64,000 nt of DNA from the NCBI RefSeq assembly GCF_014647495.1, contig NZ_BMPH01000001.1, forward strand, positions 310,001 to 374,000, read 5' to 3'. The notes under the pieces were generated by a model. It had not been told where the DNA came from. It saw only the letters and a program-made list of their open reading frames with translations, and did not search any database. A program made the translations under genes and the position numbers. This DNA is from Glutamicibacter protophormiae. Its GTDB lineage: Bacteria > Actinomycetota > Actinomycetes > Actinomycetales > Micrococcaceae. Position 1 is the stretch's first letter; each line of letters starts with the position of its first letter. Positions 9,316 to 27,327 of the stretch are shown piece by piece.

Positions 9316-10014
9316 ATGGCTGCATCATATGAAATTGAACTGCTTGACCGCTGGCGTCTGATCGCCGACGGCCAACCGGTCAAATTGCGTTTGCGCGAGC
9401 AGCGGGTGCTGACCCTGTTGGCGGTCCAGGGGCCGGTCTCGCGGCGCCGGATGGCCGGGATGCTCTGGCCGGAGACCACCGAGATGCGCGCGGCCGACAG
9501 CCTGCGCGTGAGCCTGTGCCACATCCACCACCAGTGCCCCGGGGTGATCCGCTGCGACGACGGCTGGGTGGAAATCGCCCCTGCGGTGTCCGTGGATCTG
9601 CACACCCTGCGCCATCGGCTGCAGCGCTCGCTGCTGGCCGCCGACGCCGAAAGCCTGCAGGAGGACAGCTTCCTGAACACCCGCGCGCTGCTGCCGGACT
9701 GGGACGAGCCCTGGCTGTTCGAGGAGCAGGAGGCGCTGCGCCAGCTGCAGCTGCGCGCGTTGGAGGCCGCATCGGCGCAGCTGCTGAATTCGGGGCTGCA
9801 GCATCGGGCTTGGCAGCTGGCCCAGAGCGCGTTGCGGATCGACCCGATGCGCGAATCGGCCGCGAGCCTCAGTGCCCGCGCCGAATCAGGGCAGGGCAAC
9901 AACGCCTCGGCCACCGCGGGGCTGCTGCAGTTCATCGGGCGGCTAAAGACCGAGCTCGGGGTGGAGCCGAGTCCCGAGCTGCTGCACACGCTCACCCAGC
10001 TGCGCGGAGCCTAG
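9316..10014 (+). CDS. SARP-type transcriptional regulator (winged helix plus BTAD)
   Basis: The 232-residue protein has an OmpR-like winged-helix N-terminus (about residues 5-95; LRLREQRVLTLLAV, MAGMLWPETTEMRAADSLRV) and a BTAD tetratricopeptide-like domain after it (about 95-230; LLPDWDEPWLFEEQE and ELGVEPSPELLHTLTQLRG). This is the minimal layout of Streptomyces antibiotic regulatory proteins, which activate transcription by binding 11-bp-spaced direct repeats just upstream of -10 boxes. Exactly such repeats occur at four promoters in this window (13.5, 21.9, 26.1 and 27.3 kb), so I propose it as their activator; this is inference. GGGAGAG at 9303-9309 sets the start at 9316. No such repeat lies upstream of the gene itself. 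Confidence 0.8.
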   Translation: MAASYEIELLDRWRLIADGQPVKLRLREQRVLTLLAVQGPVSRRRMAGMLWPETTEMRAADSLRVSLCHIHHQCPGVIRCDDGWVEIAPAVSVDLHTLRHRLQRSLLAADAESLQEDSFLNTRALLPDWDEPWLFEEQEALRQLQLRALEAASAQLLNSGLQHRAWQLAQSALRIDPMRESAASLSARAESGQGNNASATAGLLQFIGRLKTELGVEPSPELLHTLTQLRGA

Positions 10015-10113
10015 CTGTACCGCACCCAGCCACCCGGCCCGGGTGCGGCTGCGCGGCATGTTGCGGTGCGCCGGAAACCTGCTCCGGCCCGGGGCCATAC
10101 TAGGCTGTTACCC

Positions 10114-10704
10114 ATGATGCATGTGGGCCTGACCGGTGGGGTGGCATCCGGTAAATCAGTAGTGGCGGCGAAATTGGCGCAGCTCGGGGCGGTGCTGATC
10201 GACGCCGACGCGCTGGCGCGGGTGGTCGTCGAACCGGGCACCCCCGGGCTGGCGGCGATCCGCGAAACCTTCGGCGAACGGATGCTGCAGGAGGACGGGA
10301 CGCTGGACCGCGCCGCGCTGGGCGCCCTGGTGTTCTCCGACGAGGCAGCCCGCGAAAAGCTCAACGCGATCGTGCACCCGCTGATCCGCGAGGAATCCGC
10401 GCGCCTGCGCCAAGCCGCGCCCTCCGGTGCGCTGGTGGTCGAGGACGTGCCGCTGCTGGCCGAATCCGGGCAGGCCCCGGCCTACGACGTGGTCATCGTC
10501 GTGCAGGCGCCCCGCGAGGAGCGCATCCGCCGGATGGTGGAGGACCGCGGCTGGACCCGGCAGGACGCCGAGGCGCGCATGGCCGCGCAGGCCACCGACG
10601 AGCAGCGCGCAGAAATCGCCGACTACCTGCTCGTCAACGACGGCAGCCGCGAGCAGCTGCTGGCCCGGGTCGAAGAGCTCTACCGCCAGGAGCTGGGCCG
10701 CTGA
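10114..10704 (+). CDS. coaE: Dephospho-CoA kinase
   Basis: This 196-residue enzyme carries out the last step of coenzyme A synthesis, phosphorylating the 3'-hydroxyl of dephospho-CoA. The P-loop is GLTGGVASGKS near the N-terminus, DADALAR forms the acceptor region, and the lid segment ERIRRMVEDRGW is typical. It lacks the C-terminal UPF0157 extension found on some actinobacterial CoaE proteins. TAGGCT (10101-10106) lies 7 bases before the ATG at 10114, suggesting a leaderless message; a second ATG follows immediately. Its stop overlaps the start of the next gene by one base. Confidence 0.95.
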   Translation: MMHVGLTGGVASGKSVVAAKLAQLGAVLIDADALARVVVEPGTPGLAAIRETFGERMLQEDGTLDRAALGALVFSDEAAREKLNAIVHPLIREESARLRQAAPSGALVVEDVPLLAESGQAPAYDVVIVVQAPREERIRRMVEDRGWTRQDAEARMAAQATDEQRAEIADYLLVNDGSREQLLARVEELYRQELGR

Positions 10705-10955
10705 TGCTGAAAACCGCCAAGTGGACGATGCTTGCCTGCTTTGCCGCCGCGCTGGTGCTGTGGCTGGGCTTCGGCGGGCGCAGCGAATTCGTCGCCTCCG
10801 ACGGGCCCTACCCGCCGGTGGTGCACATCAGCGGCTGGCTGGCCCTGGCAGGGCTGGCGGCCGCGACCTGGCTGACCGTCGGCGTGTTCGGCGGGATGAT
10901 CCGCCGCACCGTGGCGCGCAACTCGATCCGCTTTGGCATGAAGCGCGGGCGCTAG
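10704..10955 (+). CDS. Small two-helix membrane protein
   Basis: This 83-residue protein has two hydrophobic helices (about residues 8-25 and 42-65) and a basic C-terminus. It overlaps the coaE stop by one base (TGATG), so it is translationally coupled to coaE. I do not recognise the family and cannot assign a function. Confidence 0.7.
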   Translation: MLKTAKWTMLACFAAALVLWLGFGGRSEFVASDGPYPPVVHISGWLALAGLAAATWLTVGVFGGMIRRTVARNSIRFGMKRGR

Positions 10956-10973
10956 CGGAACCGGGCGCAGCAC

Positions 10974-11004
10974 TGCGCGGCCGACCGCTGGGATCGGCCG
11001 CGCA
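10974..11004. terminator. Hairpin between convergent genes, probable bidirectional terminator
   Basis: A perfect 11-bp stem (TGCGCGGCCGA at 10974-10984 with 10994-11004) and a 9-base loop lie between the converging coaE operon and the M6 protease operon. There is no clear T-run on either side. Confidence 0.5.
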
Positions 11005-11040
11005 CCACGCGAGGCTGCGCCTCGGCAGGGCGGCGCCGGG

Positions 11041-11283
11041 TCAGGAGCCGCCTGGATCGGGCAATTCATCCAGCGCTATGGGTTCGGGCGCCGCGTCCGG
11101 TCCTCCGGCGGCCATCTGGCCCATGGCCATCGGCTCGGGAGCCGCCCCCGTTGTTCCCGCTCCGGCAGCGCCTGCCAGCTGCTCCAGCGCCATCGGCGAC
11201 GGAGCCGAGGAGTCCGCGGCGTCCTGGGACCCCGCTTCGCCGGTACCCGCAACGCTGATCTTGATCTTGTAGTCCTTGCTCAT
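11041..11283 (-). CDS. 80-residue Ala/Pro/Met-rich repeat peptide
   Basis: I do not recognise this protein. It begins with a lysine-containing, strand-like segment (MSKDYKIKISVAG) and continues into a low-complexity Ala/Gly/Pro region with three imperfect repeats: SPMALEQLAG, PEPMAMGQMAAG and PEPIALDELPD. It has no signal peptide and no cysteine. It is the third gene of the operon headed by the M6 metalloprotease, starting 32 bases after the previous stop. The leader-like start followed by repeated short modules could suit a processed or modified peptide, but no modifying enzyme is adjacent, so this remains open. Confidence 0.6.
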   Translation of the reverse strand: MSKDYKIKISVAGTGEAGSQDAADSSAPSPMALEQLAGAAGAGTTGAAPEPMAMGQMAAGGPDAAPEPIALDELPDPGGS

Positions 11284-11315
11284 GTGCGACTGCACCCCTT
11301 TCTCTGTCCGTCGGG

Positions 11316-11528
11316 CTAGAGGTAGACCTGCGTGATGTTCTTCGCCGCGTCCAGGACGACATAGACCTGCTTGCCGGTGGCCTTGGCCACGGAGAGCAGC
11401 AGATGGACGTTGGTCACGCCGTCGGCTGCTCCGGTCAGCACCTTGTGCCAGGCGTTGTCCGAGGCCAAATGGGCCCAGGCGTTCTGCGAATGGTTGGAGG
11501 TGAAGATCTGGTTGATGGTGGTCCACAT
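11316..11528 (-). CDS. Free-standing copy of the M6 protease C-terminal domain
   Basis: This 70-residue protein aligns along its whole length with the last 70 residues of the M6 metalloprotease encoded just upstream. Shared features are NQ-F, QNAWAH, W-K-TGA-DG-TN and a final QVYL (QCYL in the protease). The family is unknown to me. AAGGAAG sits 5 bases before the ATG. Its position, 35 bases after the protease stop, suggests that the two proteins interact, for example by domain exchange, by acting as a decoy or immunity partner, or by sharing an assembly partner. That is inference. Confidence 0.7.
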   Translation of the reverse strand: MWTTINQIFTSNHSQNAWAHLASDNAWHKVLTGAADGVTNVHLLLSVAKATGKQVYVVLDAAKNITQVYL

Positions 11529-11563
11529 GGTTCTTCCTTCTTTCGTGTCGCTCGTGGACGGAT

Positions 11564-13285
11564 TCACAGGTAGCACTGCGAGATGGTCGAGGCGTCGGCG
11601 ACGACGGTGACCAGCAGGCCCTTGGCCCGGGCCAGCGCGAGCAGGGCCAGCATGTTGGTAATGCCGTCCGGGGCGCCGGTGGTGATCTTGCGCCAGCCCA
11701 GGGTTCCCACATGCGCCCACGCGTTCTGCGCATTGACGGTGGCGAAGACCTGGTTGACCGCGATGTTGTAGTGGGTGGCCGGGCCGGTGTTCCTGGTGGC
11801 CACCGTCATCGAATGGGCGACGGCGGAGACGGACTCGATGTCCAGTCCCGAGCCGCTGCCGTCCCACCAGTTGCTGTTCGGCGCCGAGGAAGGGCCGAAG
11901 CTGGAGCCCGAACCCCCGTAGAGGTCGGTGGCATCGCCGTAGTTCACCCGCCGTTCCAGGTCGAAGCGGTTGTCCGCCTGCTCCAGGGACAGCTCGTAGT
12001 GCTTGGCCGGGGTCATCTCCTGGTTGCTGTTGTTGCCGGTGGTGTCCACGTGCCAGATCGCGACGCCGGAATCAGGCAGCGAGGCGTCCCGTCCGGCCTG
12101 CTCGCGGTTTTCCACGATGAAGTATTCCGTGGCGCTGCGCGGATGCAGCAGGAACTCGTTGCGTCCGGCCGCGATGGTGTAGCTCTGCCCGGATGCCATG
12201 GTGGTGGCCGCCGAGGACCAGCCCGCCGCATGCTTCAGGTAGGCGTCGACCTGGGTCGGATTCTTGTCGTTGCCGCCGTAGCACATCAGCGAATAGTGCC
12301 CGACGCCCAGGCCGACCCCGACGCTGTCGTAGTCGTACAGGTCCGGGAAGTCGCACACCATGTGACCGTTCTCGTGGCAGAACGTGCGCAGCGTGAGCTG
12401 GTTGCCCAAATCCGTGATCTGGTAGTCGGAGAAGCGGCGCGTCGCGCTGAGCACGTACGGGGTGGCCAGCGCCCAGCTGTGCGGCCACAGCCCTTCGCTC
12501 CACGCGTTCGAGCGGACCCCGGCGTAGAAGACGCTCAGCGCCTTGATGTAGCCGCCGGCATCTGCGGTCAGCGACGAGAAGTCGAAGCCCGACGCCACCA
12601 GGGAGTTCAGCGCCTCGCGGATCAGTTCCTGGGCCCGGGTGCCGTAGCTGATGGCCGGATCCGTGTAGTAGGTGCGCGGATGGGCCGCCCGGTAGTAGGC
12701 GGCCACGAGGTTCTTGTAGCTCAACTTGCCGTCCGAGACGTCGCGGAAGTAGTCGAACGCCGATCCGTTGTTGCCGAAGCCGGTGTAGCCCGCCTTGTTG
12801 CAGAAGTCGTCGACCTCCTGCCGGCTGATCGTGGCCGGGAAGTCGCTGAAATCAATGAGCAGCACCAGCCCCCGGAAATTTCCGGTGGTCGGATTCGACG
12901 GCGGCGCGGCCTCCGGGGATGCCGACTGGGCCTTGGCCTGGGCCTGGGCTTCCATGCGGCGTTGCATCCAGCGCGGCACCGGCCCCAGGGATTCGCGCAC
13001 ATCGCGGGCCTGCATGGCGCTGGATTCGCGGGTGACCCGCAGGTGCTGCGGCAGGGCCAGGGTTTGCGGATCGGCGGTGTCGACGCGCTCGCCGGTGGGC
13101 TGCAGCGATTCTCCGTTCTCGGCGAGCTGCGCGTATTCGTAGTAGCCGTCCTCGCCCTTGACGACGGTGTAGCCGTCCAGGGTTTCGAAGACCGCATGGA
13201 ACTGGTTTCCCCAGCCCTTGAGTGTCAACTCGGAGCCGTCGGGGTTCTGAAAGGTGAATAATTCGCCTTGGAATGGGACTGGCAT
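11564..13285 (-). CDS. M6 family metalloprotease without signal peptide
   Basis: The 573-residue protein belongs to the immune-inhibitor-A (M6) peptidases. The zinc site is CHENGHMVCDFPDLYDYD (HExxH plus the family's PDLYD), preceded by an N-terminal domain (about residues 1-100; LTLKGWGNQFHAVFETLDGYTV) usual in this family. M6 enzymes are normally exported, yet the start is a hydrophilic MPVPFQGELFTF and there is no Sec or Tat signal. GGGAGGAAGG in front of the ATG at 13285 fixes the start. The last 70 residues form a separate domain that recurs as the next gene. The operon has a triple 11-bp repeat upstream (13525-13553), the probable SARP operator. Location and targets are unknown. Confidence 0.85.
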   Translation of the reverse strand: MPVPFQGELFTFQNPDGSELTLKGWGNQFHAVFETLDGYTVVKGEDGYYEYAQLAENGESLQPTGERVDTADPQTLALPQHLRVTRESSAMQARDVRESLGPVPRWMQRRMEAQAQAKAQSASPEAAPPSNPTTGNFRGLVLLIDFSDFPATISRQEVDDFCNKAGYTGFGNNGSAFDYFRDVSDGKLSYKNLVAAYYRAAHPRTYYTDPAISYGTRAQELIREALNSLVASGFDFSSLTADAGGYIKALSVFYAGVRSNAWSEGLWPHSWALATPYVLSATRRFSDYQITDLGNQLTLRTFCHENGHMVCDFPDLYDYDSVGVGLGVGHYSLMCYGGNDKNPTQVDAYLKHAAGWSSAATTMASGQSYTIAAGRNEFLLHPRSATEYFIVENREQAGRDASLPDSGVAIWHVDTTGNNSNQEMTPAKHYELSLEQADNRFDLERRVNYGDATDLYGGSGSSFGPSSAPNSNWWDGSGSGLDIESVSAVAHSMTVATRNTGPATHYNIAVNQVFATVNAQNAWAHVGTLGWRKITTGAPDGITNMLALLALARAKGLLVTVVADASTISQCYL

Positions 13286-13884
13286 TCGGGTGCCTTCCTC
13301 CCTTGGGTGGCGTGATGTGGGATTGATTCCGCGTCGTCCGCCGCGTAGCGGCGGCAGGCGGGATTCGCCAAGGCACATCGGGAGGCAGCATCGAAAAGCC
13401 AGCGCCCGGTATGCGCAACGTTGTCCGGGGGAGCGGCCGGCAAGAACTGCGCCGGTTCGCCCCGTGGCGCGCCGCCGCCGGAAATTCCGGCGGCGGACGT
13501 GCTGTCACTACTATGCCGTTGGGTGATTACCGCTGTGTTACCGCGGCATTACCGCGACGGCAGTCCGCTGGCTACGGCGATCGTTTCAAGCTTGAAAAAG
13601 GCGGCGAGCCGCAACGGGACGCCCAGCGCGGACCATTCGATCAGGGAGCCGGCGCGCTGGGGGAGCTGCGGTTTCAGGAAAGCGAGGTGGAGAGCCCCGG
13701 CGGTAACGGCCAAGACTCCTTTCACGCAAATACGAGGAAACTTGACGCTGCCAAGCAACACCTACCCGCCCAGGGCGGCGCCCGGGAAACCGGCAGTCCC
13801 CGGGACGGCCCGGCGCGTTGTTCGGCCCGGCAACCGATGGGAGAATTCCTAGGGGACGCTGGTAGTCAAGAGAAAAGACATGCC
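13286..13884. other. Intergenic region with SARP-type operator, no convincing gene
   Basis: Apart from the operator at 13525-13553 and the promoter-like sequence next to it, I see nothing that looks coding. Short open frames on both strands have no recognisable content. The downstream part (13560-13880) resembles decayed coding sequence. Confidence 0.5.
13509..13553 (-). promoter_or_regulatory. Triple 11-bp direct repeat (SARP-type operator, site A) of the M6 operon
   Basis: Read on the minus strand, GGTAATG, GGTAACA and GGTAATC occur at exact 11-bp steps (13553-13547, 13542-13536 and 13531-13525). They are followed after 10 bases by ATAGTA, or after 11 by TAGTAG, as a -10 box. The repeats point toward the M6 protease gene, whose start is about 240 bases downstream. 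The layout is that of known SARP binding sites. Confidence 0.7.
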
Positions 13885-14679
13885 ATGATGAAACTGAATT
13901 TGCTGGGTGGACAAAAGCTCACGACGCGGGGCGTCGACCGTGTTTCCGGCGGGCCCATAGTCGCGCAGCCGTTGGACCTCCGGCTCCTGCGCCCCGGTAG
14001 CCGCGTGCCGCGACCAGTAGCGGCCGGGAGTTTTTGGCCTGAAACGGTCGAGGACCCAGCGCTGAACAGTTTCCGCACCGAACACGCCGCATTGTGCGAG
14101 GACGTTGTCGCCGCCTGGCGGACGCTGGCCGAACCACTTGCCACAACCAACCTGGCGGGAATTTCCGGGCCGAGCACCAAGCGCGCCTCGCCTGGCTCGA
14201 TCGTTGAACGTGATGCCCGGGCCAAACAACACAGCAAACGAAAGTCGTCAATGAACGTCTCTCAGGCCGCCGAATCAATCATGCCCAACACCCCGAAGTC
14301 CGGCGCCGGTGAACACCTCGTCTCGATCCAACGGGGTCCCGATTGCGCCGCTGTGCCGCAGCGACAAGGGGGAAGTACCCGGCAGCGCTACCCCTGGCCG
14401 TGTTTGATCCCCGTTGAGGTGATTGACGAGGTGCAGGGGACCCGGCGCGCCGGGATCCAGGTGCTCGAATCATCCTTGGCCGCCGAGGCAACCAAGGCGA
14501 TCACCGACAACAAGCCATTGGCCAAGTTCACCGTCGGCACAGTCGGCCGCATCATTGAATTCGATGGACTCACCGATGGAATTCTTGGTGGTGCCACCGA
14601 GCCTGTACCCGTGGAGCGCGCAGACCACGCGGCGGATGCGGCACGGGCTGGAGCATGCCGCGTTGGTGACCGGGCATGA
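13885..14679 (+). pseudogene. Probable decayed SARP-like regulator fused to unknown sequence
   Basis: This frame is open for 264 codons. The first 75 residues align without gaps to the SARP regulator at 9.3 kb: both have WPET at residues 51-54, in AAGSFWPETVEDPALNSFRT here and MAGMLWPETTEMRAADSLRV there. After that the similarity stops abruptly and the composition looks unlike a folded protein until about residue 170, where a more normal segment begins (LIPVEVIDEVQGTRRAG, then KFTVGTVGRIIEFDG). I infer a remnant made by frameshift or recombination. However, its stop overlaps the next start as ATGA, which would suit a translated gene; an internal ATG at 14251 could begin a shorter real protein. 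Confidence 0.4.
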
Positions 14680-15254
14680 GCACGCACGACGCTGCGCATG
14701 AACCTGGGTGTGAAGCTGAGTCCTTTCTGCTGCTCCCGCATACGGTGACCAACCTCGCGGAATTCACGGCATCCCCCCGCAGGTACCTGGTCTCCGTCGA
14801 GGAGGAACCCGACCGGGCAACGCAGCTCTGGTTCAAGCGGGCGGCGCAAAACCCCTACGGCGGCGACGGGATTGTGCAAATACGTTATTTCGGCGAACAA
14901 CTGATTCCGCCCGGATTGTGGGACGACACGCTGGCGATCTGGTTTGCGCTGCTTGACGCGATTGAAGGATTCCTGTCGGCGGGCGCCGGTCACGGCTCAT
15001 TCAGCGCTGAGATCATTCTCTCGGGGAACCGGCATGCCGCGGGTTTTTCGATTGGCGGGGTATCGAATCGCATCGAGCCGTTGGCGTTCATCCCCGCCGT
15101 GCTTGGTGGGGCAAAGCGCTACTTCGACTGGCTTGAAAACAGGGTCGGCCGCACCCATCCCGGGATCCCCGAGCGTATCGAGGTGATGACCCGATTGCTG
15201 GATTCTTTCAGCCAACCGCGAGCAGTTCCCCAAGAGTCGGGACCTAGGGCGTAG
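14676..15254 (+). CDS. Uncharacterised 192-residue protein
   Basis: I do not recognise this protein. It is soluble, mildly acidic, has no signal peptide and contains Trp-rich stretches (PPGLWDDTLAIWFALLDAIEG, in two parts of one helix-like region) and a beta-like segment (GSFSAEIILSGNRHAAGFSIGG). Its ATG overlaps the preceding stop (ATGA). uvrB starts 10 bases after its stop but has its own -10 box inside this gap. Codon use is normal for the window, so it appears to be intact even though the sequence before it looks decayed. Confidence 0.65.
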   Translation: MSTHDAAHEPGCEAESFLLLPHTVTNLAEFTASPRRYLVSVEEEPDRATQLWFKRAAQNPYGGDGIVQIRYFGEQLIPPGLWDDTLAIWFALLDAIEGFLSAGAGHGSFSAEIILSGNRHAAGFSIGGVSNRIEPLAFIPAVLGGAKRYFDWLENRVGRTHPGIPERIEVMTRLLDSFSQPRAVPQESGPRA

Positions 15255-15263
15255 CCTAGATGC

Positions 15264-17351
15264 ATGAGTCTTGCACAGCCCATCAAACGAGTTGTCGCCC
15301 CCTTCGAGGTCATCAGCGAATACGAGCCGGCCGGCGACCAGCCGCAGGCCATCGCGGAGCTGACGCAGCGGATCCAGGCCGGTGAGAAGGACATCGTGCT
15401 GCTCGGCGCGACCGGCACCGGCAAGTCCGCGACGACCGCCTGGCTGGTCGAGCAGGTGCAGCGCCCCACACTGGTGCTGGTGCAGAACAAGACCCTGGCC
15501 GCCCAGCTGGCCAACGAGTTCCGCGAGCTGATGCCGAACAACGCGGTCGAGTACTTCGTGTCCTACTACGACTACTACCAGCCCGAGGCCTACGTGCCGC
15601 AGACCGATACCTTCATCGAGAAGGACTCCTCGATCAACGAGGAGGTCGAGCGGCTGCGCCACTCGGCCACCAACTCGCTGCTCACCCGCCGCGACACGAT
15701 CGTGGTCGCCACGGTGTCCTGCATCTACGGCCTGGGCACCCCGGAGGAATATGTCGCCGGGATGGTGACCGTGCGCCAGGGCGAGGAACTGAACCGCGAC
15801 GCGATGCTGCGCCAGTTCGTCGCCATGCAGTACACCCGCAACGACATGGACTTCCACCGCGGCACCTTCCGGGTGCGCGGAGACACCGTGGAGATCATCC
15901 CGATGTATGAGGAGCAGGCGGTGCGCATCGAGTTCTTCGGCGACGAGGTGGAGGCGATCTACACGCTGCACCCGGTCACCGGCGAGGTGATCCGCGAGGA
16001 AACCGAGATGTACATCTTCCCGGCCAGCCACTATGTGGCCGGCGCCGAGCGGATGCACAAGGCGATCAAGACCATCGAGGACGAGCTGGCGGCGCGGCTG
16101 AAGGAGCTGGAGAGCCAGAACAAGCTCGTCGAGGCCCAGCGGCTGCGCATGCGCACGACCTACGACCTGGAAATGATGGAGCAGATGGGCTTCTGCAACG
16201 GCATCGAGAACTACTCGCGGCACATCGACGGCCGCGAGGCCGGCTCCGCCCCGCACTGCCTGCTGGACTACTTCCCGGACGACTTCCTGCTGGTCATCGA
16301 CGAGTCCCACGTCACCGTGCCGCAGATCGGTGCCATGTACGAGGGCGACATGTCACGCAAGCGCACCTTGGTGGAGCACGGCTTCCGCCTGCCCAGCGCC
16401 ATGGACAACCGCCCGCTGAAGTGGGACGAGTTCCTGGAGCGCATCGGCCAGACGGTGTACCTGTCCGCGACCCCGGGCAAGTACGAGCTGGGCAAGTCCG
16501 ACGGCTTCGTGGAGCAGATCATCCGCCCGACCGGCCTGATCGACCCGGAGATCATCATCAAGCCCACCAAGGGGCAGATCGACGACCTGCTGGACGAGAT
16601 CCGCACCCGCGTGGACCGCGACGAACGCGTGCTGGTCACCACCCTGACCAAGCGCATGGCCGAAGACCTCACCGACTACCTCACCGAGCACCAGGTGCGG
16701 GTGCAGTACCTGCACTCTGACGTGGACACCATCCGCCGCGTCGAGCTGCTGCGCGAATTGCGCATGGGATCCTTCGACGTGCTGGTGGGCATCAACCTGC
16801 TGCGCGAGGGCCTGGACCTGCCCGAGGTGTCGCTGGTGACGATCCTGGATGCCGACAAGCAGGGCTTCCTGCGTTCGGCGACCTCGCTGATCCAGACCAT
16901 CGGCCGCGCAGCCCGCAACGTGTCGGGCCAGGTCATCATGTACGCGGACAAGATCACCGACGCGATGGGCCAGGCGATCGAGGAGACCAACCGCCGCCGA
17001 GAGATCCAGCGGGCGCACAACGAGAAGCACGGCATCGACCCGACGCCGCTGCGCAAGAAGATCGCCGACATCACCGACCAGCTGGCCCGCGAGGATGCGG
17101 ACACCCAGGAGCTGCTGAACAACAACCGCCTGGCCAAGGGCGGCAAGCGCACCTCCGCATCGTCGACCGTGCGCAAGGACGGGCTGGCCGCTGCGCCGGC
17201 CGAGGACCTGCTGGGCCAGATCGAGGAGATGACCGGGCAGATGCATGCCGCCGCCGCGGAGCTGCAGTTCGAGCTGGCCGCGAGGCTGCGCGATGAAGTG
17301 TCCGAGCTGAAGAAGGAATTGCGCCAGATGAAGGCCGCCGGGCACGCCTGA
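15264..17351 (+). CDS. uvrB: Excinuclease ABC subunit B
   Basis: UvrB (695 residues, full length) is the damage-verifying helicase of nucleotide excision repair. It has the Walker A GATGTGKS, the beta-hairpin region [12 protein letters not shown], the DEAD-like motif IDESH, helicase motifs V and VI ([22 protein letters not shown]) and the C-terminal UVR motif that binds UvrC (LEFQLAAR-type segment near residue 665). TAGCCT (15252-15257) ends 6 bases before the ATG, implying a leaderless message. No clear LexA box was found here, in contrast to uvrA. Confidence 0.97.
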
Positions 17352-19287: not shown

Positions 19288-20583
19288 CTAGGACCCGGAA
19301 TCGCCCTTCGCGGCGGCTTCCGGGTCTTCGCCGTTGGTCATGGCCAGCAGCCGGCGGAAGATCGCCGGACCCTCGTCGCCCAGCCCATCGTGGTGGAAGT
19401 CCTCGGTCACCCAGGCCTGCAGGTTCGCCACCTGCGAAGCGGTGCGCAGCGACAGCTCGCGATCAACGTAGACGTCGTCGTGGTAGACCGCCGCGGCCAC
19501 CGGCACGGTATTGGAGGCCAGCGCTTCGACGTCGTAGAGCGGCCCGAAGTGCTCGTGCTCGGCCAGGATCCGGGCCACGTCCTCCAGCGGGCGCAGCGCC
19601 GGGTCCTCGGCGAAGTGCCAGCGGAAGATCATCTCCCCGGTTAGCAGCGGGGTCTTGGCGTGCGCGGTGAACTGCGGGAATTCCGGCAGCACGGCCTCGG
19701 CCGCGAAGTTCGTGGCCGCGTCCTGGGCGTAGATGCTCTCGTGCATCAGCGCATACAAGGGGTTCGCGGCGAAGGAGGACTGCGTGTACAGCGCATCCAG
19801 GAAGGTGTCGGACAGCCGCTGGCCGCCGGGGGTGTCGATGAACGCTTCCTCGAACACGTGGTGCAGCAGGTGCACCCGGCTGTTGCCGCCCAGGTACATG
19901 CCCAGCATCTGCACCAGCGGGACGGTGACGCGCTGGCCATTGGGCAGCACTTCGTCGCCGCCGTGGCGCACATGCTCGTAGATCCTGCCCAGGACCTCGA
20001 AATCCTGCGGGTACCAGGAGAAATACTCGGCATTGCGCTCTGCCATGCGCTGGTAGGTCGCCCGGTAGACCTCGCGCGGTTCGGCGTCCAGCGAAGCCAG
20101 CCCGCCGGTGACCAGGCAACGGTCGAGGGACTGCGGAAACAGCGACAGGTAGGTCAACGTGCAGAACCCGCCGTAGCTCTGTCCCAGGGTGCTCCACTTC
20201 TCGATGCCCAGCTGCTCGCGCAGCGCCTCGGCATCGCGCACGATCGAGTCCGCGCGGAAATGCTCAAGGTAGCGGGCCTGGGCGGCGAAGTCGCCGCGCA
20301 AGGCCAGGGACTGGCGGTTGGCCGGGGTGGACAGCCCGGTGCCGCGCTGGTCCAGCAGCAGCACGCGGAAGTGCTTGACCGCCTCGGCCAGCCACCCGGA
20401 GAGGGACCCGGGCCGCGGGGATTTTCCGCCCGGCCCGCCCTGCAGGAACAGCAGCCACGGCAGCGAGGAATCGGTGCTGATCTCGCGGGCGAACACGCTG
20501 ATCTTCTCGCCGGCCGGGCGCGTATGGTCCAGCGGGACCTCGACGCGGTGCTCGGTGACGTCCATGCCGCGGTAGTGGCTCAT
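19288..20583 (-). CDS. Alpha/beta hydrolase of the prolyl aminopeptidase type
   Basis: The 431-residue protein has the alpha/beta-hydrolase core with oxyanion-hole segment LFLQGGPGGKSPRP, DQRGTGLSTP, the nucleophile elbow GQSYGG, and late Asp and His candidates (YHDDVYVD, FHHDGLG). This combination is typical of proline iminopeptidase-like enzymes (S33 family), which remove N-terminal proline from peptides. There is no signal peptide, so it acts in the cytoplasm. The start is the ATG at 20583, which overlaps the stop of the GNAT gene (ATGA), so the two are translationally coupled. Confidence 0.85.
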   Translation of the reverse strand: MSHYRGMDVTEHRVEVPLDHTRPAGEKISVFAREISTDSSLPWLLFLQGGPGGKSPRPGSLSGWLAEAVKHFRVLLLDQRGTGLSTPANRQSLALRGDFAAQARYLEHFRADSIVRDAEALREQLGIEKWSTLGQSYGGFCTLTYLSLFPQSLDRCLVTGGLASLDAEPREVYRATYQRMAERNAEYFSWYPQDFEVLGRIYEHVRHGGDEVLPNGQRVTVPLVQMLGMYLGGNSRVHLLHHVFEEAFIDTPGGQRLSDTFLDALYTQSSFAANPLYALMHESIYAQDAATNFAAEAVLPEFPQFTAHAKTPLLTGEMIFRWHFAEDPALRPLEDVARILAEHEHFGPLYDVEALASNTVPVAAAVYHDDVYVDRELSLRTASQVANLQAWVTEDFHHDGLGDEGPAIFRRLLAMTNGEDPEAAAKGDSGS

Positions 20584-21071
20584 CGTGCTGCTCCTTCGGT
20601 GCCCAGGGCGGTTAATTCGGCGCCGTCCAGCCGGCGGGTGGTCCAGCCGTCCATGGAGGAGGCGCCGATGGAATCGTAGAACTTGATGGCCGGCTCGTTC
20701 CAGTCCAGCACCGCCCATTCAAGGCGCTTGTAGCCGCGTTGCACGCAAATCTGCGCAAGGGTGCGCAGCAGCGCGGTGCCGGTGCCCGAACCGCGCCGGG
20801 CGGAGCGCACATACAGGTCCTCCAGGTGGATGCCGTGGCGGCCCTCCCAGGTGGAATAGGTCAGGTACCAGACGGCCACGCCGATCACGGTGCCGGCGTC
20901 GTCCTCGGCCACATGGGCGAAGACCTTGGGGTCCGCGCCGAACAGGTGGTCTTCCAGGTCCTGCACGGTGTTGCGGACCGCGTCCGGCTCCTTCTCGTAA
21001 ACTGCGAGTTCGTGGATCAGTTCCAGAATCTGCGGGCAGTCGGCAGGGGTTGCTTCGCGCACATTGCTCAT
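20580..21071 (-). CDS. GNAT acetyltransferase, diamine N-acetyltransferase-like
   Basis: This 163-residue GNAT protein resembles spermidine/spermine acetyltransferases: LAVYEKEPD near the N-terminus, GIHLEDLYVRSARRGSGTG (the acetyl-CoA loop) and VLDWNEPAIKFYDSIGA. Such enzymes acetylate polyamines or other small amines. TAAGCT (21084-21079) ends 7 bases before the ATG, so a leaderless transcript is likely. It heads an operon with the hydrolase. Confidence 0.85.
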   Translation of the reverse strand: MSNVREATPADCPQILELIHELAVYEKEPDAVRNTVQDLEDHLFGADPKVFAHVAEDDAGTVIGVAVWYLTYSTWEGRHGIHLEDLYVRSARRGSGTGTALLRTLAQICVQRGYKRLEWAVLDWNEPAIKFYDSIGASSMDGWTTRRLDGAELTALGTEGAAR

Positions 21072-21133
21072 GTGCTCAAGCTTACCGCCGTCGTGCCGCC
21101 AATTCGTCGGTGACCAGTCTTAAGGTTGAACCC

Positions 21134-21886
21134 ATGATGGGTGGACACCACGCCATGAGCGGCGCAGCCGCATGGCTAGCAATGACGACTCCGGTGAGCA
21201 TCGGCTCCGTAGACCTCGGCTTCGGGGCCCTGCAGATGGACCGGTGGGAAACGCTGGCCGGGGCGATCGTTTGTGCGGGCGCCGCACTGCTGCCCGACGC
21301 GGACCACCACGGGGCCACCATCGCCCGTTCGCTGCCGCCCATCTCCAGCATCTTCACCCGCATCATCGGCAAGGTTTCCGGCGGGCACCGCAACGGCACG
21401 CACTCGATCCTCGGCATGGCGTTCTTCATCCTGCTGGCCTGGCTGGCCAACGGCTGGGCGGTGCAGACCGCGGCGCTGGGCACCGTGTACCCGGCCGCGG
21501 CGCTGTTCGCGGTGCTGCTGATCTCCTTCGCCGTGAAGTCGGTGAAATTCATGCCCCCGGCCCTGTGCTGGGTCATCGCGCTGGCCGCCGGCGCGTTCGT
21601 CGGCATGAACGCGCCGACGGAAAACCAGTGGTTCCTGGTGGCGGTCGCCGTCGGCGTCGTGGTGCACGTGCTGGGGGACATGCTGACCATCGGCGGATGC
21701 AACCTGATCTGGCCGATCAAGATCCGTTCCCCGCGCTGGTTCCGGCGCCTGCCGGTCATCGGCGGCGTGTGGAAGGCCAACGGGCGGGTCGCGCTGCCGA
21801 TCCTTGCCGAAACCGGATCCGCGGCCGAATGGGCCCTGGCCTCCCTGCTCACCGTCTACGTGGGTGTCGCGCTGATCGTCGCCTGA
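21134..21886 (+). CDS. Membrane-bound metal-dependent hydrolase (DUF457/YdjM-like)
   Basis: The 250-residue protein has about five hydrophobic segments and conserved histidine/aspartate motifs, GGHHAMSGAA at the N-terminus, LLPDADHHG, and GGHRNGTHS. These define the DUF457 (YdjM/LexA-regulated) membrane hydrolase group. Substrates are not known. The ATG at 21134 begins the conserved HH motif region; another ATG follows one codon later. It lies just upstream of the SARP-type promoter D but is not controlled by it. Confidence 0.8.
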   Translation: MMGGHHAMSGAAAWLAMTTPVSIGSVDLGFGALQMDRWETLAGAIVCAGAALLPDADHHGATIARSLPPISSIFTRIIGKVSGGHRNGTHSILGMAFFILLAWLANGWAVQTAALGTVYPAAALFAVLLISFAVKSVKFMPPALCWVIALAAGAFVGMNAPTENQWFLVAVAVGVVVHVLGDMLTIGGCNLIWPIKIRSPRWFRRLPVIGGVWKANGRVALPILAETGSAAEWALASLLTVYVGVALIVA

Positions 21887-21921
21887 CCCATGGCATGGGC
21901 TGCGGGCCGGTGATCGATTCC

Positions 21922-21955
21922 GGTAATGCCCGTGTAATGCGGCCCGGCGGACACT
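21922..21955 (+). promoter_or_regulatory. Double 11-bp direct repeat (SARP-type operator, site D)
   Basis: GGTAATG (21922-21928) and TGTAATG (21933-21939) are 11 bp apart and followed after exactly 10 bases by GACACT (21950-21955), which has the A and T expected at positions 2 and 6 of a -10 box. It is on the coding strand of the membrane protein that starts at 22128. Confidence 0.6.
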
Positions 21956-22127
21956 GGGCCTACCCGGGAACCGGCGCATCGCCCCGGCAGTCCGGGCGCC
22001 GTGGGCCTGCAGCGATCGTGTCCGGCAGGCTCCTTGTTTCCCGCCGGTGACCCGCTGTTCGGGGCCGCCGGCGGCTCGTACCGCTTCGCCTTCCGTGGAA
22101 CCACGGGCAGCAATCGAGGGACCGGCC

Positions 22128-23282
22128 ATGCCGAACACCGGCGCGCATCCGCAATTCATCGCCAACATGGCCCAGCGCCGTTTCCCGATCGCCGTGTCGG
22201 ACCTCACCGCGTGGCAGGACGAGGCGCGGTATCTCGCCCAGCTGCCGGCAACCGCGGCGAACCCCGCGGGGACCCCGCCGGCCGCGGCCGAGCTGGACCA
22301 GGCCATCAAGCACCACCTTGACGCGGCGCAGGCGCGGCTGACCCGGCCGAGGTTCAAGATGATGCTGGGCACCACGCTGATCGGCAGCGTCATGGCCCAC
22401 GTGCACGCCGCCGAATCCCTGATGCTGCGCCGCGGCGACACCGACTACCTGCTGGGCAAGCTGCCCAAGATCCAGTCCGACGTGCGCAACCACCTGCGGC
22501 TCAAGGACCCCCAGCGCATCGGCTTCGAACAGCTCATGCGCGACATGGACAAGCTCGGCTCCAATGGGCAGGCCAAACGTGATCTGGTCTCCTCCGGCCA
22601 CGTGCGCGAGGAGATCATCAACGCCGGCACCGCGGCGAACATGTCCTACCGGCGCGAGTACGCGCGGATGCTCAGCTTCCACCGCGGGCTGACCGCGTGG
22701 ACAGTGATCCTGCTGGTGCTGGCCGCCGGCCTGGCCGTCTGGGGCGCGGTGCGCCCCACGGACCTGGCGATCTGCTTCACCCCGCAGGGCCAGGGCACCG
22801 TGGTCTGCCCCACCAGGGAAAGCCCCTACGCCGCGGGCCAATCCGCGGCGCCGGCCGGCGGCGCGGAGAACACCGAGAGCTCCGCCCAGGTGTCCTCCGG
22901 CGAACAGCGGCGCGACGAGGTCATCGCCGGCGCCGTGCGTCCCACCGACATCTCCCTGCTGCTCCTGGTGGGCATGGCCGGGGCGGCGGTGACGGCCGCC
23001 GGGTCCTTCCGCAGCGTCGGCGGCACCGCGACACCGTTCAACCTGGCCATCGCCATGGCCCTGCTGAAGCTGCCGCTCGGGGCGCTGATCGCGGTGTTCG
23101 GGCTGCTGCTGATCCGCGGCGGATTCTTCCCGGGGCTTTCCGACCTGGACAGCGCCCCGCAGATCCTGGCCTGGGCGGTGATCTTCGGCGCCGCCCAGCA
23201 GCTGTTCACCGTGATGGTCGACCAGCAGGCCAAGCGCGTGCAGGACCAGGTCGGCGAAGTGGTGGAAGCGCCGAACGAATGA
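22128..23282 (+). CDS. Uncharacterised membrane protein of the SARP-box group
   Basis: I do not recognise this 384-residue protein. The first 190 residues are soluble, helical and charged. The C-terminal half has four hydrophobic segments: LTAWTVILLVLAAGLAVWGA, DISLLLLVGMAGAAVTAAGS, NLAIAMALLKLPLGALIAVF and PQILAWAVIFGAAQQLFTVM. A loop of about 70 residues between the first two contains two cysteines (CFTPQGQGTVVC). GAGGG at 22116-22120 precedes the ATG at 22128 by 7 bases. It is preceded by site D and followed 25 bases later by the DUF2278 gene, so the two form an operon. It could be a sensor, channel or anchor for the system; this is inference. Confidence 0.7.
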   Translation: MPNTGAHPQFIANMAQRRFPIAVSDLTAWQDEARYLAQLPATAANPAGTPPAAAELDQAIKHHLDAAQARLTRPRFKMMLGTTLIGSVMAHVHAAESLMLRRGDTDYLLGKLPKIQSDVRNHLRLKDPQRIGFEQLMRDMDKLGSNGQAKRDLVSSGHVREEIINAGTAANMSYRREYARMLSFHRGLTAWTVILLVLAAGLAVWGAVRPTDLAICFTPQGQGTVVCPTRESPYAAGQSAAPAGGAENTESSAQVSSGEQRRDEVIAGAVRPTDISLLLLVGMAGAAVTAAGSFRSVGGTATPFNLAIAMALLKLPLGALIAVFGLLLIRGGFFPGLSDLDSAPQILAWAVIFGAAQQLFTVMVDQQAKRVQDQVGEVVEAPNE

Positions 23283-23307
23283 GCGGCGTCGGGGAAAGGA
23301 CAAGGAC

Positions 23308-23967
23308 ATGCCACTGGCCAACGGGTACGGGGTGCTGATCGGGACCCTGCACGACTACTACCGCGACCCGCCCGATGACTTCGGGCGCTACTACCACGGC
23401 AACCTGGTGATCCACGCGCCGGCAGGCAACTACAAGTGCGCCATCGACGTGGATCCGAAGAACATGCCCGACGGCGTCCAGTGGCGCACCGTGTCGCTGC
23501 GCACGCTGGACTTCGCGGCGATTTCCTCCCTGCCCGACGGCTGGCACCCGCTGGCCTCCGAACCGTCCACCGGGGCGCTGGACTACATCCGCTCCGCGGT
23601 GCTGCACCCGCCGGCCCTCATCCACCTGCTGCGCTACTCGAGCTGCCTGAACCGGCTGCTGGCATGGCTGCGCTGGAATCCTCCGTGGAAGAGCGGCACC
23701 GGGTTCCAGGCGCTGACCGAACTGGAAAACGTGATCGATGCCGGCGCCCGGTTCTTCGTGTTCGGCGAACCCTTCTCCAGCGGTCTGGGAGTGCACAATG
23801 TGCACCAGAACCAGGGCGACCCGGTAGGCGGCGGGCACGACGCGGAGAACTGGATCTGGCAGGACGGCGGCACTATCGTGCTCAAGCCCGACGGGCGGCT
23901 GCTGGGCTTCCTGAACAAGTTCCAGACCCAGTCGTTTAAGACCGATGGGCAGGGCCGCCCGGCCTAG
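23308..23967 (+). CDS. DUF2278 family protein
   Basis: The 219-residue protein matches DUF2278: YGVLIGTLHDYYRD at the start, then a strand-rich middle, LDYIRSAV, and the highly conserved C-terminal block ARFFVFGEPF, GVHNVHQNQGDP, WIWQDGGTIV. The family is found in Bacillus and actinobacteria, and I know of no established function. It has no signal peptide. AAAGGACAAGGAC precedes the ATG. It is the second gene in the operon controlled by site D, and it converges with the astacin-like protease gene. Confidence 0.8.
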   Translation: MPLANGYGVLIGTLHDYYRDPPDDFGRYYHGNLVIHAPAGNYKCAIDVDPKNMPDGVQWRTVSLRTLDFAAISSLPDGWHPLASEPSTGALDYIRSAVLHPPALIHLLRYSSCLNRLLAWLRWNPPWKSGTGFQALTELENVIDAGARFFVFGEPFSSGLGVHNVHQNQGDPVGGGHDAENWIWQDGGTIVLKPDGRLLGFLNKFQTQSFKTDGQGRPA

Positions 23968-24028
23968 GGCAGGAAGATGCCCCGCACCGTCCGGGATCCG
24001 GCGGTCCGGGGCACGCGGCCGCGAGCGG

Positions 24029-25054
24029 CTACCAGTACATGATGCTGGAGGTGCCGTTGCCCCCGGCCCAGTACAAACGCAGCCGCACCACGTAGCGGCG
24101 CCCGGCCAGCAGCCGGGTGGTCAGCTGGGCGTTCAGCCCGGTGCCGCTGTCGTCGTCGCCGCCCAGGTAGCGCAGCGAACCGCCGTCGTCCTCGAAGAGC
24201 ACCATCACCATGTCCGACGTGCCGAAGGTGGCGATCGTGCAGTCCTGCGAGGCCTCCGGGACGATGGCGAAGTCCGCCTGCTGCCCGGCCGCCAGCTGCA
24301 GCACCTTGGATTCGAAGGCCTTCAGCTCGGTGACGGCGGCCGTGGTAGCCGGGTAGAACTTCTTGGCCCATTCCTTGTCCTGGTCCGAGAGCCCTCCGGC
24401 CGGTTCCAGGCCGCCGGAGTACTGGGCAGGCTGCACGATCAGGCCCGCGGGGAACCAGTACTCCATGACGGAGTTCGGGTCCCACGGGGAGCCGTCCACC
24501 TCCTGCTGGCTGAACTTGTGCAGCACGTTCTGCTCGGTCTGCGCCCGGGTCCAGAAATTCGGGGACCCGGTGAAGAACTTGTAGACCGCGTCCTCGTCCC
24601 ACACGATGCCGGAGAACGGGTTCTGGTGCTCGTGCGGCAGGCCCAGGCTGTGCCCGATCTCGTGCAGGGCGGTGGTGTGGCCGTAGTCGTCGGTCAGGTC
24701 CCAGCCGAAATTCATGGTGGTTTCGGTGGCGGGAATGCCCAGCAGGTCGCGGCCCACATAGGACCACGAGCCGTCGGCCTGGTCGAAGGCGATGCGGATT
24801 TCCGAGGAGCCGCGGTCGGTGGTCTCGGTGAACTTCAGTCCCAGCGGCAGGGCTTTCCACTCGGCGAACGCCTTGCGCACGGCTTCGCGCTGCGCCTCGG
24901 GCCCGTCGATGAAGAAGTAGTGCAGCTCGGTCTCGTTGACCCAGACCTTGGACAGCACCCGTATGAGGCGCATCCGCAGGTCCGGCAGGCCGGGAGGAAG
25001 CTCGCGTTGGACGATCGGCTTGGTCAGGCACAGCGGCCGGTTTTCATTGCTCAT
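24029..25054 (-). CDS. Astacin/matrixin-like metalloprotease with C-terminal PPC-like domain, no signal peptide
   Basis: The 341-residue protein carries a metzincin zinc site, HEIGHSLGLPHEH (HExxHxxGxxHE), and a Met-turn NSVMEYW about 60 residues later, so it is an active-looking M12A/M10-type peptidase. A pre-peptidase-C-like beta domain follows from about residue 245 (LAAGQQADFAIVP, LLAGRRYVVRL). Enzymes of this class are nearly always secreted, but the N-terminus (MSNENRPLCLTKPIVQ) has no signal peptide or propeptide. GGGAGCAGGAT precedes the ATG at 25054. It is the second gene of an operon led by the beta-rich protein and preceded by site B. Confidence 0.82.
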   Translation of the reverse strand: MSNENRPLCLTKPIVQRELPPGLPDLRMRLIRVLSKVWVNETELHYFFIDGPEAQREAVRKAFAEWKALPLGLKFTETTDRGSSEIRIAFDQADGSWSYVGRDLLGIPATETTMNFGWDLTDDYGHTTALHEIGHSLGLPHEHQNPFSGIVWDEDAVYKFFTGSPNFWTRAQTEQNVLHKFSQQEVDGSPWDPNSVMEYWFPAGLIVQPAQYSGGLEPAGGLSDQDKEWAKKFYPATTAAVTELKAFESKVLQLAAGQQADFAIVPEASQDCTIATFGTSDMVMVLFEDDGGSLRYLGGDDDSGTGLNAQLTTRLLAGRRYVVRLRLYWAGGNGTSSIMYW

Positions 25055-25132
25055 ATCCTGCTCCCTGGATTCAGGTTTCACGGAGTATCGAGGGGGCGCG
25101 CCGCGCCGGAGGCGGTGCGGCGCGCGGTCTGC

Positions 25133-26005
25133 CTAGCTGACGTAGACGAGCGGAACGCCGAGGTAGTTGGCGTTGCCGTCGGCGAAGTTCAGCTGGGCGT
25201 TCGAGCCTCCGCCGCGCGCGTAGACGTAGAGCGCGACGGACAGCAGCAGGTAGGCCTGGTCCGCACCGAGCAGGTCCGAGTAGTACATCGTACGCCAGCC
25301 GTCGAAACGGTCGTTGACATTGATGTTGTCATCCCCGGTCGACAGCACGTTCACGCTGCCGGCCGGCTTGTAGTTGTACTGGTAGCCGCGGGCCGTCATC
25401 GAGATGTTGACCTTCGCCTCCTTGGAGTCGAACCATCCGTCGTCCGCCCGCACGATGTAGAAGCCGTTGAACGGGACGTAGATGGTCTGCGCGTAATTGC
25501 GGTTCTCCGGGGCGCGGAAGCTGAACCACCAGTCCATGTACAGCGTGAACGACCCGGCGCCGGTGCCGAACAGCCCCGAGCCGGCACCGCTGGCCCAGCA
25601 GGACGCGTCGATGTTGCCGGGGTTGTAGCCCTGCCAGGAGATGGCCCCGTTGGACCCGTGCAGCGTGCCGTAGTACGGGGTCAGCCAGCCCACCGCCGCA
25701 GCGGAAGGCCCGTTGCCCATGACCGCGCAGAGCGCCGTGGATTCGCGCGGCGCCTGCCCGGCCAGCGTTGCCGCGCAGGACTTCATATCCTTCGCCGCCG
25801 CCTCCTCCGCGGAGGAATCGCCGCCCAGGTAGGAGGCCAGCGACTCCGGCAGCGAGTCCTGCAGCGCGGCCAGGCTGCGCTGCCCGCGCGTCTCGACGTC
25901 GGCCAGCCGGTCGGCCTGCGCCTTCTGCAGGGCGACGACCTCTTCGCGCCGGGCCGCAAGCAGCCGGTCGAAGACCAGATCGGTCCCCTCATTGATGTCC
26001 GCCAT
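25133..26005 (-). CDS. Uncharacterised coiled-coil plus beta-rich protein
   Basis: I do not recognise this 290-residue protein. Residues 1-60 are strongly helical and charged (LLAARREEVVALQKAQADRL), suiting a short coiled coil. The middle has two cysteines (MKSCAATLAG, ALCAVMG). The C-terminal 180 residues are rich in Trp, Tyr, Asn and Gly with repeated beta-strand patterns (FTLYMDWWFSFRAP, IYVPFNGFYIV, VNISMTARGYQYNY), like a beta-sandwich binding domain. There is no signal peptide. Site B lies about 100 bases upstream. It precedes the astacin-like protease in one operon and could be its substrate, carrier or inhibitor; this is inference. Confidence 0.65.
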   Translation of the reverse strand: MADINEGTDLVFDRLLAARREEVVALQKAQADRLADVETRGQRSLAALQDSLPESLASYLGGDSSAEEAAAKDMKSCAATLAGQAPRESTALCAVMGNGPSAAAVGWLTPYYGTLHGSNGAISWQGYNPGNIDASCWASGAGSGLFGTGAGSFTLYMDWWFSFRAPENRNYAQTIYVPFNGFYIVRADDGWFDSKEAKVNISMTARGYQYNYKPAGSVNVLSTGDDNINVNDRFDGWRTMYYSDLLGADQAYLLLSVALYVYARGGGSNAQLNFADGNANYLGVPLVYVS

Positions 26006-26101
26006 GATTTCCCCCTCATGCTGAGGCCAACGCCCATGCCGTCGCCGGTGGATACCGGGTCGGCCGCCCGGGTTCGGGCACGTCGGCCGCGTGGAGGCTC
26101 C

Positions 26102-26146
26102 AGCGTAGCCGGGGCGTCGTTACCCGGTTATTACCCCTGCGTTACG
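26102..26146 (-). promoter_or_regulatory. Triple 11-bp direct repeat (SARP-type operator, site B)
   Basis: On the minus strand, CGTAACG, GGTAATA and GGTAACG (26146-26140, 26135-26129, 26124-26118) are spaced 11 bp apart and followed after exactly 10 bases by TACGCT (26107-26102) as a -10 box. It lies between the alpha/beta hydrolase stop and the beta-rich protein gene, and points to the latter. Confidence 0.7.
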
Positions 26147-26154
26147 CGTCCGGA

Positions 26155-27237
26155 TCATCCGGAGGCGACCCGGTAGACGACGCTGTTCAAGGTGGCGGGG
26201 TCCTCGTCGAAGGTGCCGTGGGCGGAGGCCAGGCAGCGGCGCCCGGGGGCGCCGACCTCGGTCTTGGACCAGGTGGCGTCCGCCGCTGGGGCGCCCAGGA
26301 AACCGGCCAGGTCCGCGTCCGCGGCGACCGAGCGCTCCAGCCCGAGCAGCCCGATGCCGCGTTCTGGTTCCAGCGCGGCGCTGATCAGGCAGAGCAGCGA
26401 TCGCGGGTAGAGCCACAGCACGCTGTCATCTTCTTCCAGCTGCCGGTGCAGGCCGAACAGGTGCAGGTGCTCGATGCCCTGCGGGGTGCCGACCAGCGGT
26501 CGCAGCAGCCGGTTGAAGTCAGCGATGCTCAGGGCCGCGGCCAGCAGGTTCAGCGAGCTGACGCCGGTGCCCGAGCCGTGCTGCAGGTACAGCGGCAGGA
26601 ACCTGGAATGGAAGATTGCGCCGGCCGAATGCCCGGCCGCGTGCACCTGCACGGCGCCGGGATTCCGGGCGGTGAATTCGGCCAGCCGCTGCGCCACGTA
26701 GGCGGCCCCGCCGTCCACGGCCACCGCCTGGTCGGCGCCGACCTTCATCTGCGCCCAGACCTTCTGGCCCAGCGGGCGCACGGCCCGCTCGACCCCGGCC
26801 GCCCAGAGGTCCTCGACGAGGTTGCGGGCCCGGGCCTGCTGTTGCTCCTGCAGCTCGCGGGCGCCGCTGCGCGGCATCAGCGAGCACAGGGCGTCGAGCA
26901 GCCCGGTCTCCCAGATGAAGAACAGCGGGTAGATGCCGTGTTCCAGCCAGTGCGGCAGCATGCGGGCGGCGCCGATGATGCCGCGCGCCTCGCTGACCAG
27001 CCCGCCGTGGGCCCAGAAGAGCAGCCGTAGCGGGCCCTGGTGCTGGTCCATGTAGCGCGGCAGGTGCTCGGCGAAGATCGCGTCCACGTCCTCGGCGCTG
27101 GTGACCAGGGCGCCGTCGTCGGAGAACTGCCCGTTGGAGAGGTTGACCAGGTGCGGGCGCAGGGCCTCCAGGTCGAGGGTGGGAGGCAGCGAATGCAGCG
27201 TGGCCGGCTCGGCCGGCTGCAGGCTCAGCAATGCCAT
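26155..27237 (-). CDS. Alpha/beta hydrolase-like protein of the SARP-box group
   Basis: The 360-residue protein has an alpha/beta-hydrolase core: a strand and HG motif (LLFWAHGGL, about residue 80) and a nucleophile elbow GHSAGAIFHS near residue 210, like lipases and esterases. The general fold is clear but I cannot assign a substrate, and the Asp/His triad partners are not certain. There is no signal peptide. AAAGGAG lies 6 bases before the ATG at 27237. Site C lies just upstream. The gene ends before site B, so the two downstream genes may be transcribed from their own promoter as well as by read-through. Confidence 0.7.
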   Translation of the reverse strand: MALLSLQPAEPATLHSLPPTLDLEALRPHLVNLSNGQFSDDGALVTSAEDVDAIFAEHLPRYMDQHQGPLRLLFWAHGGLVSEARGIIGAARMLPHWLEHGIYPLFFIWETGLLDALCSLMPRSGARELQEQQQARARNLVEDLWAAGVERAVRPLGQKVWAQMKVGADQAVAVDGGAAYVAQRLAEFTARNPGAVQVHAAGHSAGAIFHSRFLPLYLQHGSGTGVSSLNLLAAALSIADFNRLLRPLVGTPQGIEHLHLFGLHRQLEEDDSVLWLYPRSLLCLISAALEPERGIGLLGLERSVAADADLAGFLGAPAADATWSKTEVGAPGRRCLASAHGTFDEDPATLNSVVYRVASG

Positions 27238-27293
27238 GGGGTGCTCCTTTGCGGTGCCGCGCACCGTGCAGGCTCGGCACGGTGCTCAGACAA

Positions 27294-27327
27294 AGGATGG
27301 ACGTCGGGGCGTTACCGGAGCATTACC
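27294..27327 (-). promoter_or_regulatory. Double 11-bp direct repeat (SARP-type operator, site C)
   Basis: On the minus strand GGTAATG (27327-27321) and GGTAACG (27316-27310) are 11 bp apart, followed after exactly 10 bases by CATCCT (27299-27294), a weak -10. It faces the alpha/beta hydrolase-like gene starting 57 bases further on. Confidence 0.6.

Follow-up and report, generated by a model that had tools for sequence, protein, structure and literature searches.

Regulators of the Streptomyces antibiotic regulatory protein (SARP) family are known as activators of antibiotic clusters, mostly in Streptomyces. Small members such as ActII-ORF4, RedD, and DnrI combine a winged helix with a BTAD domain and act at two or three heptamers that recur in 11-bp steps and overlap the −35 region, features shared by the locus described here. 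The afsS promoter of Streptomyces coelicolor, where the AfsR repeats lie at −40 to −30 and at −29 to −19, offers a second likeness, namely a SARP fold, two 11-bp repeats, and 6 bp from the 11-bp unit to the −10 element (PMC10936776), together with a poor or absent −35 element. The locus lies in a 64,000-nucleotide stretch of the Glutamicibacter protophormiae genome (contig NZ_BMPH01000001.1, positions 310,001 to 374,000; hereafter the window), in which a small SARP-type activator (9316..10014, plus strand) very probably activates four promoters directly via GRTAAY direct repeats in 11-bp steps. Regulator, operator, and targets also co-occur in related genera. The regulon and operator appear to be undescribed in the open-licence literature; the SARP mechanism itself is known.

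The regulator is predicted to comprise 232 aa, with a start codon backed by an alignment of 37 relatives. Its C-terminal BTAD domain scores above the Pfam cut-off (PF03704, 1.6e-9). Pfam Trans_reg_C gave no match in the window regulator, and phmmer of its sequence alone found no match in the PDB; a profile search, however, recovers AfsR by sequence (1.9e-13). An AlphaFold model built from 37 sequences (pLDDT 93) has as its closest solved structures the two AfsR protomers of transcription complex 8k60 (Foldseek E 2.4e-9, TM 0.77), aligns over the AfsR chain with an N-terminal OmpR-type winged helix, and also matches Mycobacterium tuberculosis EmbR. By the features tested, the modeled protein is a small SARP, as had been proposed from its winged helix and BTAD.

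Gene calls from open reading frames (ORFs) and third-position GC content (GC3) place eight genes in four operons, namely an M6 protease operon (three genes), mem22-DUF2278 (two), beta25-metzincin (two), and hyd26 (one). The original prediction located GGTAAY-type direct repeats before each, and a sequence check found all four sites in place, with steps of exactly 11 bp and each oriented toward its gene. Operator 1 (13525..13553, minus strand; GGTAATG-CCGC-GGTAACA-CAGC-GGTAATC) faces the M6 operon and operator 2 (21922..21939, plus; GGTAATG-CCCG-TGTAATG) the mem22 operon; operator 3 (26118..26146, minus; CGTAACG-CAGG-GGTAATA-ACCG-GGTAACG) and operator 4 (27310..27327, minus; GGTAATG-CTCC-GGTAACG) face beta25 and hyd26. 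Eight of the ten heptamers are exact GGTAAYN, and TGTAATG and CGTAACG have one mismatch each. A 10-bp gap to a −10-like hexamer, claimed for all four, is exact at operators 2 to 4 (GACACT, 21950-21955, plus; TACGCT, 26107-26102, minus; CATCCT, 27299-27294, minus) but not at operator 1, where the best hexamer (CATAGT, 13515-13510, minus) stands at 9 bp and the one at 10 bp, ATAGTA, is a worse −10 match. In Glutamicibacter soli, operator 1 persists in degenerate form (locus L075, 3555-3582) and operator 2 is retained (L074, 13337), as it is 5' of the orthologue in Arthrobacter sp. Leaf141 (L185, 1944). Forty-four aligned sites give the operator code [GA][GA]TAA[CT]G-NNSC, repeated two or three times and followed by 6 bp and a −10 element like YAYRCT; TAA is nearly invariant, and the distance to the −10 is the same in nearly all of them.

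The motif is rare outside these promoters. With one mismatch allowed, the pair pattern matches six times in the window, compared with 0.06 expected from dinucleotide shuffles (maximum 1 in 100). All four exact pairs in the 3.83-Mb genome lie within the window (reversed-pattern control, 0), while at one mismatch the genome yields 14 matches versus 24 in the control, so these looser matches are background. A degenerate pattern including the −10 recovers sites 2, 3, and 4 and one AT-rich match elsewhere (control, 1). From these genome-wide pattern searches, the regulon read from the motif comprises just the four window promoters; the exact motif is confined to them rather than scattered.

Across the family, 151 genomes were searched separately for the regulator protein and for the motif. 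The 37 with a small SARP contain 32 exact motifs (9 reversed controls), as opposed to 28 (30 reversed controls) in the 114 without one. In 40 SARP regions, RRTAAY pairs peak sharply at 11 bp (43 pairs) and 22 bp (14), with two or fewer at any other spacing from 6 to 33, and direct repeats at these two spacings stand just 5' of the −10. Among 360 letter permutations of the motif, high scores came only from the motif itself in shifted or overlapping frames. Outside the genus, seven genomes carry the motif within about 5 kb or less of a regulator relative only 31–41% identical, and in G. soli it lies in the same block as the relative. Named genomes scanned after the motif had been settled gave further cases in agreement (L184, L185, L187, and L189). 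In genome G147, regulator and targets are on different contigs, which fits the proposed control in trans. Exact motifs in regulator-less genomes (e.g., G032, G058, G133, and other Glutamicibacter) do not exceed background and were set aside as evidence; the G032 and G058 sequence is nearly palindromic. Where a single site lies away from any SARP locus, chance matches may be among the cases.

Conservation upstream of orthologues, which the original prediction had called for, was seen in Paeniglutamicibacter and Arthrobacter. Orthologues of hyd26 above 50% identity have the site in nine of nine cases, the window's own copy included, whereas those at 42–47% identity lack it, with G147 as sole exception. 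All beta25 orthologues found in Micrococcaceae carry it, and so does the M6 orthologue of the metagenome-assembled genome (MAG) G079. The latter gene (L172 588-2117, minus) has an in-frame TAG (NPT*VEAYLK versus NPTQVDAYLK in the window), which may reflect a pseudogene, an error, or read-through. In Paeniglutamicibacter-type genomes the SARP gene is flanked by hyd26 and beta25-metzincin, each preceded by a site. Three of these loci also have an extracytoplasmic function (ECF)-sigma-like gene and membrane partner directly 5' of hyd26 (L079 13846-15715, L082 4662-6525, and L184 1181-3039), which could be a second control layer.

The targets were predicted to lie in two blocks split by core genes. 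The split stands; counting the regulator gene, however, there are three separate insertions across about 18 kb of conserved backbone (window 9316-27327 compared with L195-L201), and Leaf141 has a single 9-kb cluster with three sites and genes for a membrane protein, a papain-hydrolase fusion, p70, M6, beta25, metzincin, and SARP, so that genes occupying separate blocks in the window form one group elsewhere. The small SARP is present in only 2 of 18 Glutamicibacter genomes. In seven Glutamicibacter species without it, the M6-p70-repeat protein genes and the mem22-DUF2278-metzincin-beta25-hyd26 block are all absent as well, and the backbone order is kept (methyltransferase, UPF0029, CoaE, small protein, and UvrB; then TerC, MarR [not seen in one species], alpha/beta hydrolase, YdjM, and DUF3516). 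Every target operon in the insertions has a site and no backbone gene does. The window regulon is best read as an accessory module that is acquired or lost as a whole. As judged from sequence, the repeats track regulator relatives and the same targets across genera, and the joint absence in congeners likewise points to the proposed tie between regulator and four operons.

In analogy to the structure of AfsR with RNA polymerase, SARP protomers would line up side by side in twos or threes over −51/−40 to −19, keeping sigma region 4 and the beta flap at a promoter that has no element other than the −10. The bound SARP would turn on four operons with eight genes, the whole regulon in this genome. 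Because the products are mainly zinc proteases and hydrolases without export signals, what is switched on is most likely a group of cytosolic hydrolases.

The M6-type metalloprotease (11564..13285, minus; HENGH...PDLYD; TIGR03296, 6.9e-49) has a C-terminal 'NAWA' domain and no signal peptide by hydropathy. It is followed by p70 (11316..11528, minus), a 70-aa protein homologous to that C-terminal domain, and by the last gene of the operon (11041..11283, minus), encoding 80 aa with three APxPxAxxxL-type repeats; the last protein is 78% conserved in G. soli, and a similar proline/alanine-rich ORF follows p70 in L185. A thermolysin-like signal-less protease in L160 (G094) has a C-terminal 'NAWV' domain related to p70 and without Pfam entry. 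The mem22 gene (22047..23282, plus; start codon uncertain) encodes a membrane protein with transmembrane-like segments, homologues of which adjoin SARPs in L102 and L185, and is followed by a DUF2278 gene (23308..23967, plus; Pfam, 6e-44). The beta25 protein (25133..26005, minus) is predicted to have an N-terminal coiled-coil-like helix, a beta-rich domain, and no signal peptide; its AlphaFold model is poor (pLDDT 45.5). It belongs to an unnamed, widely spread family with relatives at 53–70% identity in Dyadobacter, a Chloroflexi MAG, a Planctomycetota MAG, and an unclassified MAG (L191-L194), where neither a perfect site nor an adjoining SARP was found; these relatives outside Actinobacteria have no bearing on the regulon. 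The astacin/matrixin-like metzincin (24029..25081, minus; HEIGHSLGLPHEH; Pfam Astacin, 2.1e-9) matches NF050131, beta-glucuronidase AbsR1 (1.7e-117), at 392.5 bits, below the curated cut-off of 650, and is accordingly a homologue only.

The GHSAG alpha/beta-hydrolase-like hyd26 (26155..27237, minus) is a hub of domain fusions, occurring joined to caspase or papain in other genera (Peptidase_C14, 3.8e-20, for the caspase). The long form with C-terminal caspase is found in Paeniglutamicibacter-type genomes (L079, L080, L081, L082, L083, and L184), where a signal-less HExxH protein of 485–550 aa adjoins it, and Leaf141 has a hyd26-type hydrolase with N-terminal papain (L185 3185-5305). Further genes behind the same site encode a caspase (G147), a papain with a chagasin-type inhibitor (G079), and a non-specific endonuclease (G017). 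In G017 (L164 3058-4361) the exact motif precedes two proteins with GxIxNVxGNQ-type repeats, like amyloid signalling motifs. At two other loci (L102 7069-8531 and L111 8212-9680) a SARP gene stands beside a signal-less subtilase and 76-aa partner, in L102 with a mem22-like protein as well; no GRTAAY site was found at either subtilase locus. PADLOC returned no defence match for seven window proteins, the caspase domain of relatives being the only match.

Signal-less hydrolases as a common theme suggest controlled intracellular digestion. Regulated self-proteolysis, for instance in response to stress or as a form of suicide, is a plausible though tentative purpose. More doubtful is the wider proposal that one SARP branch in Micrococcaceae serves solely to switch on an arsenal of intracellular proteases, in which M6, metzincin, and the alpha/beta hydrolase fused to caspase or papain would carry out a programme of cell death or self-digestion, with the same operator swapped between this arsenal and RiPP-type peptide clusters (below). 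Direct binding, activation rather than repression, action in the cytosol, and purpose are what we infer from the patterns above.

The strongest competing account, itself rather unlikely, is that the module encodes extracellular nutritional hydrolases that leave the cell through lysis or by some uncharacterized export. Secretion is the usual fate of M6 and astacin proteases, which would agree with this. The M6 protease, metzincin, beta25, and hyd26, like their homologues, nevertheless lack an N-terminal hydrophobic segment, which two secreted controls have, and the caspase and papain fusions and the signal-less chagasin-type inhibitor beside a site-bearing papain also speak for cytosolic action. 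Several observations weigh against the reading of a SARP-controlled set of intracellular proteases. SCO6992 (AbsR1) of S. coelicolor, the metzincin homologue, showed beta-glucuronidase and no protease activity (PMC9705864), which would suit extracellular hydrolases; 'protease' is therefore a sequence-based label for the metzincin. Absence of signal peptides was called from hydropathy alone. The SARP tree does not unite the regulators of protease loci in a single clade and places the window SARP on a long branch, which complicates orthology. For many SARP relatives (e.g., L100, L101, L105, and L113) the surrounding 9 kb or so contain no such site. G147 has no SARP near its sites and one elsewhere in the genome, and the sites of Arthrobacter sp. 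H20 have no SARP nearby.

Improbable, by comparison, is that another winged-helix regulator, such as an OmpR-type response regulator, binds the repeats and that the SARP is simply nearby. OmpR/PhoB-type regulators do bind 11-bp direct repeats. Moreover, AfsR and PhoP have common sites in Streptomyces (PMC10972967), and two-component genes adjoin the SARP in L092, L189, and L096, though LuxR-type in look. The SARP is, however, the regulator common to the motif-bearing loci, including Leaf141 and the peptide clusters, and is present or absent together with the targets. Slightly less credible again is repression by the SARP from these sites. Occupied repeats would cover the −35 region; on the other hand, their register equals that of AfsR in the activation complex (PMC10936776), and family members as a rule activate. 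That the repeats are chance occurrences or non-operators (uptake signals or intergenic elements) is hardly credible. Single exact pairs do turn up as background in regulator-less genomes, but the genome-wide rarity, the sharp 11/22-bp peak, the fixed −10 distance, and the sites 5' of orthologues contradict this account.

Sister SARPs appear to share the operator yet serve dissimilar targets. In L077, L085, L086, L089, L094, and L098 the same operator precedes 63–66-aa peptides whose leader is of the ELLPxRETL type; a protein adjoining the peptides scores, at the two loci that were scanned, 106–109 bits to the daptide intramembrane protease (cut-off 300) and is by this model a relative, not a member. 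These six loci and L110 resemble clusters for ribosomally synthesized and post-translationally modified peptides (RiPPs), with several 63–71-aa ELLPxRETL-type leader peptides, a membrane HExxH protease related to daptide_HExxH, a secreted protein of about 250 aa, and a SARP, and may represent a separate peptide class. By sequence comparison, the operator is conserved across the SARP branch while the targets differ. In this non-filamentous soil genus, a SARP appears to govern a regulon of signal-less proteases and hydrolases that is small and can be listed in full. The operator code (GRTAAYG in 11-bp steps, then the −10) allows target prediction for this branch in many genomes, including caspase-domain operons and RiPP-like clusters, and bacterial caspases and leaderless metalloproteases would become experimentally switchable.

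Compared with described systems, the window SARP is distinguished mainly by what it is predicted to control. Small SARPs of the ActII-ORF4/RedD/DnrI type have a heptamer that differs from the window heptamer. Their targets are antibiotic biosynthesis clusters, whereas those in the window are protease and hydrolase operons, with no synthase for secondary-metabolite biosynthesis found among them (M6, metzincin, hydrolase, DUF2278, and membrane proteins). AfsR, unlike the window SARP, is large, has NOD and TPR domains, and controls antibiotic production, and the AfsR box, CGTTYATCGNN (PMC10972967), is unlike the GRTAAY operator. SCO6993, the neighbour of SCO6992, was considered as a SARP precedent and rejected; according to PMC9628970 it is a LuxR-type LAL regulator, unlike the window SARP. 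Protealysin provides a parallel only, being an intracellular bacterial metalloprotease of the M4 family from Serratia with no SARP (PMC9505478). The text on NTP-dependent conflict systems (PMC7159879) is without SARP or BTAD, and no STAND or vWA partner was noticed in the window system; the likeness is in their actinobacterial effectors, which include caspases and further peptidases.

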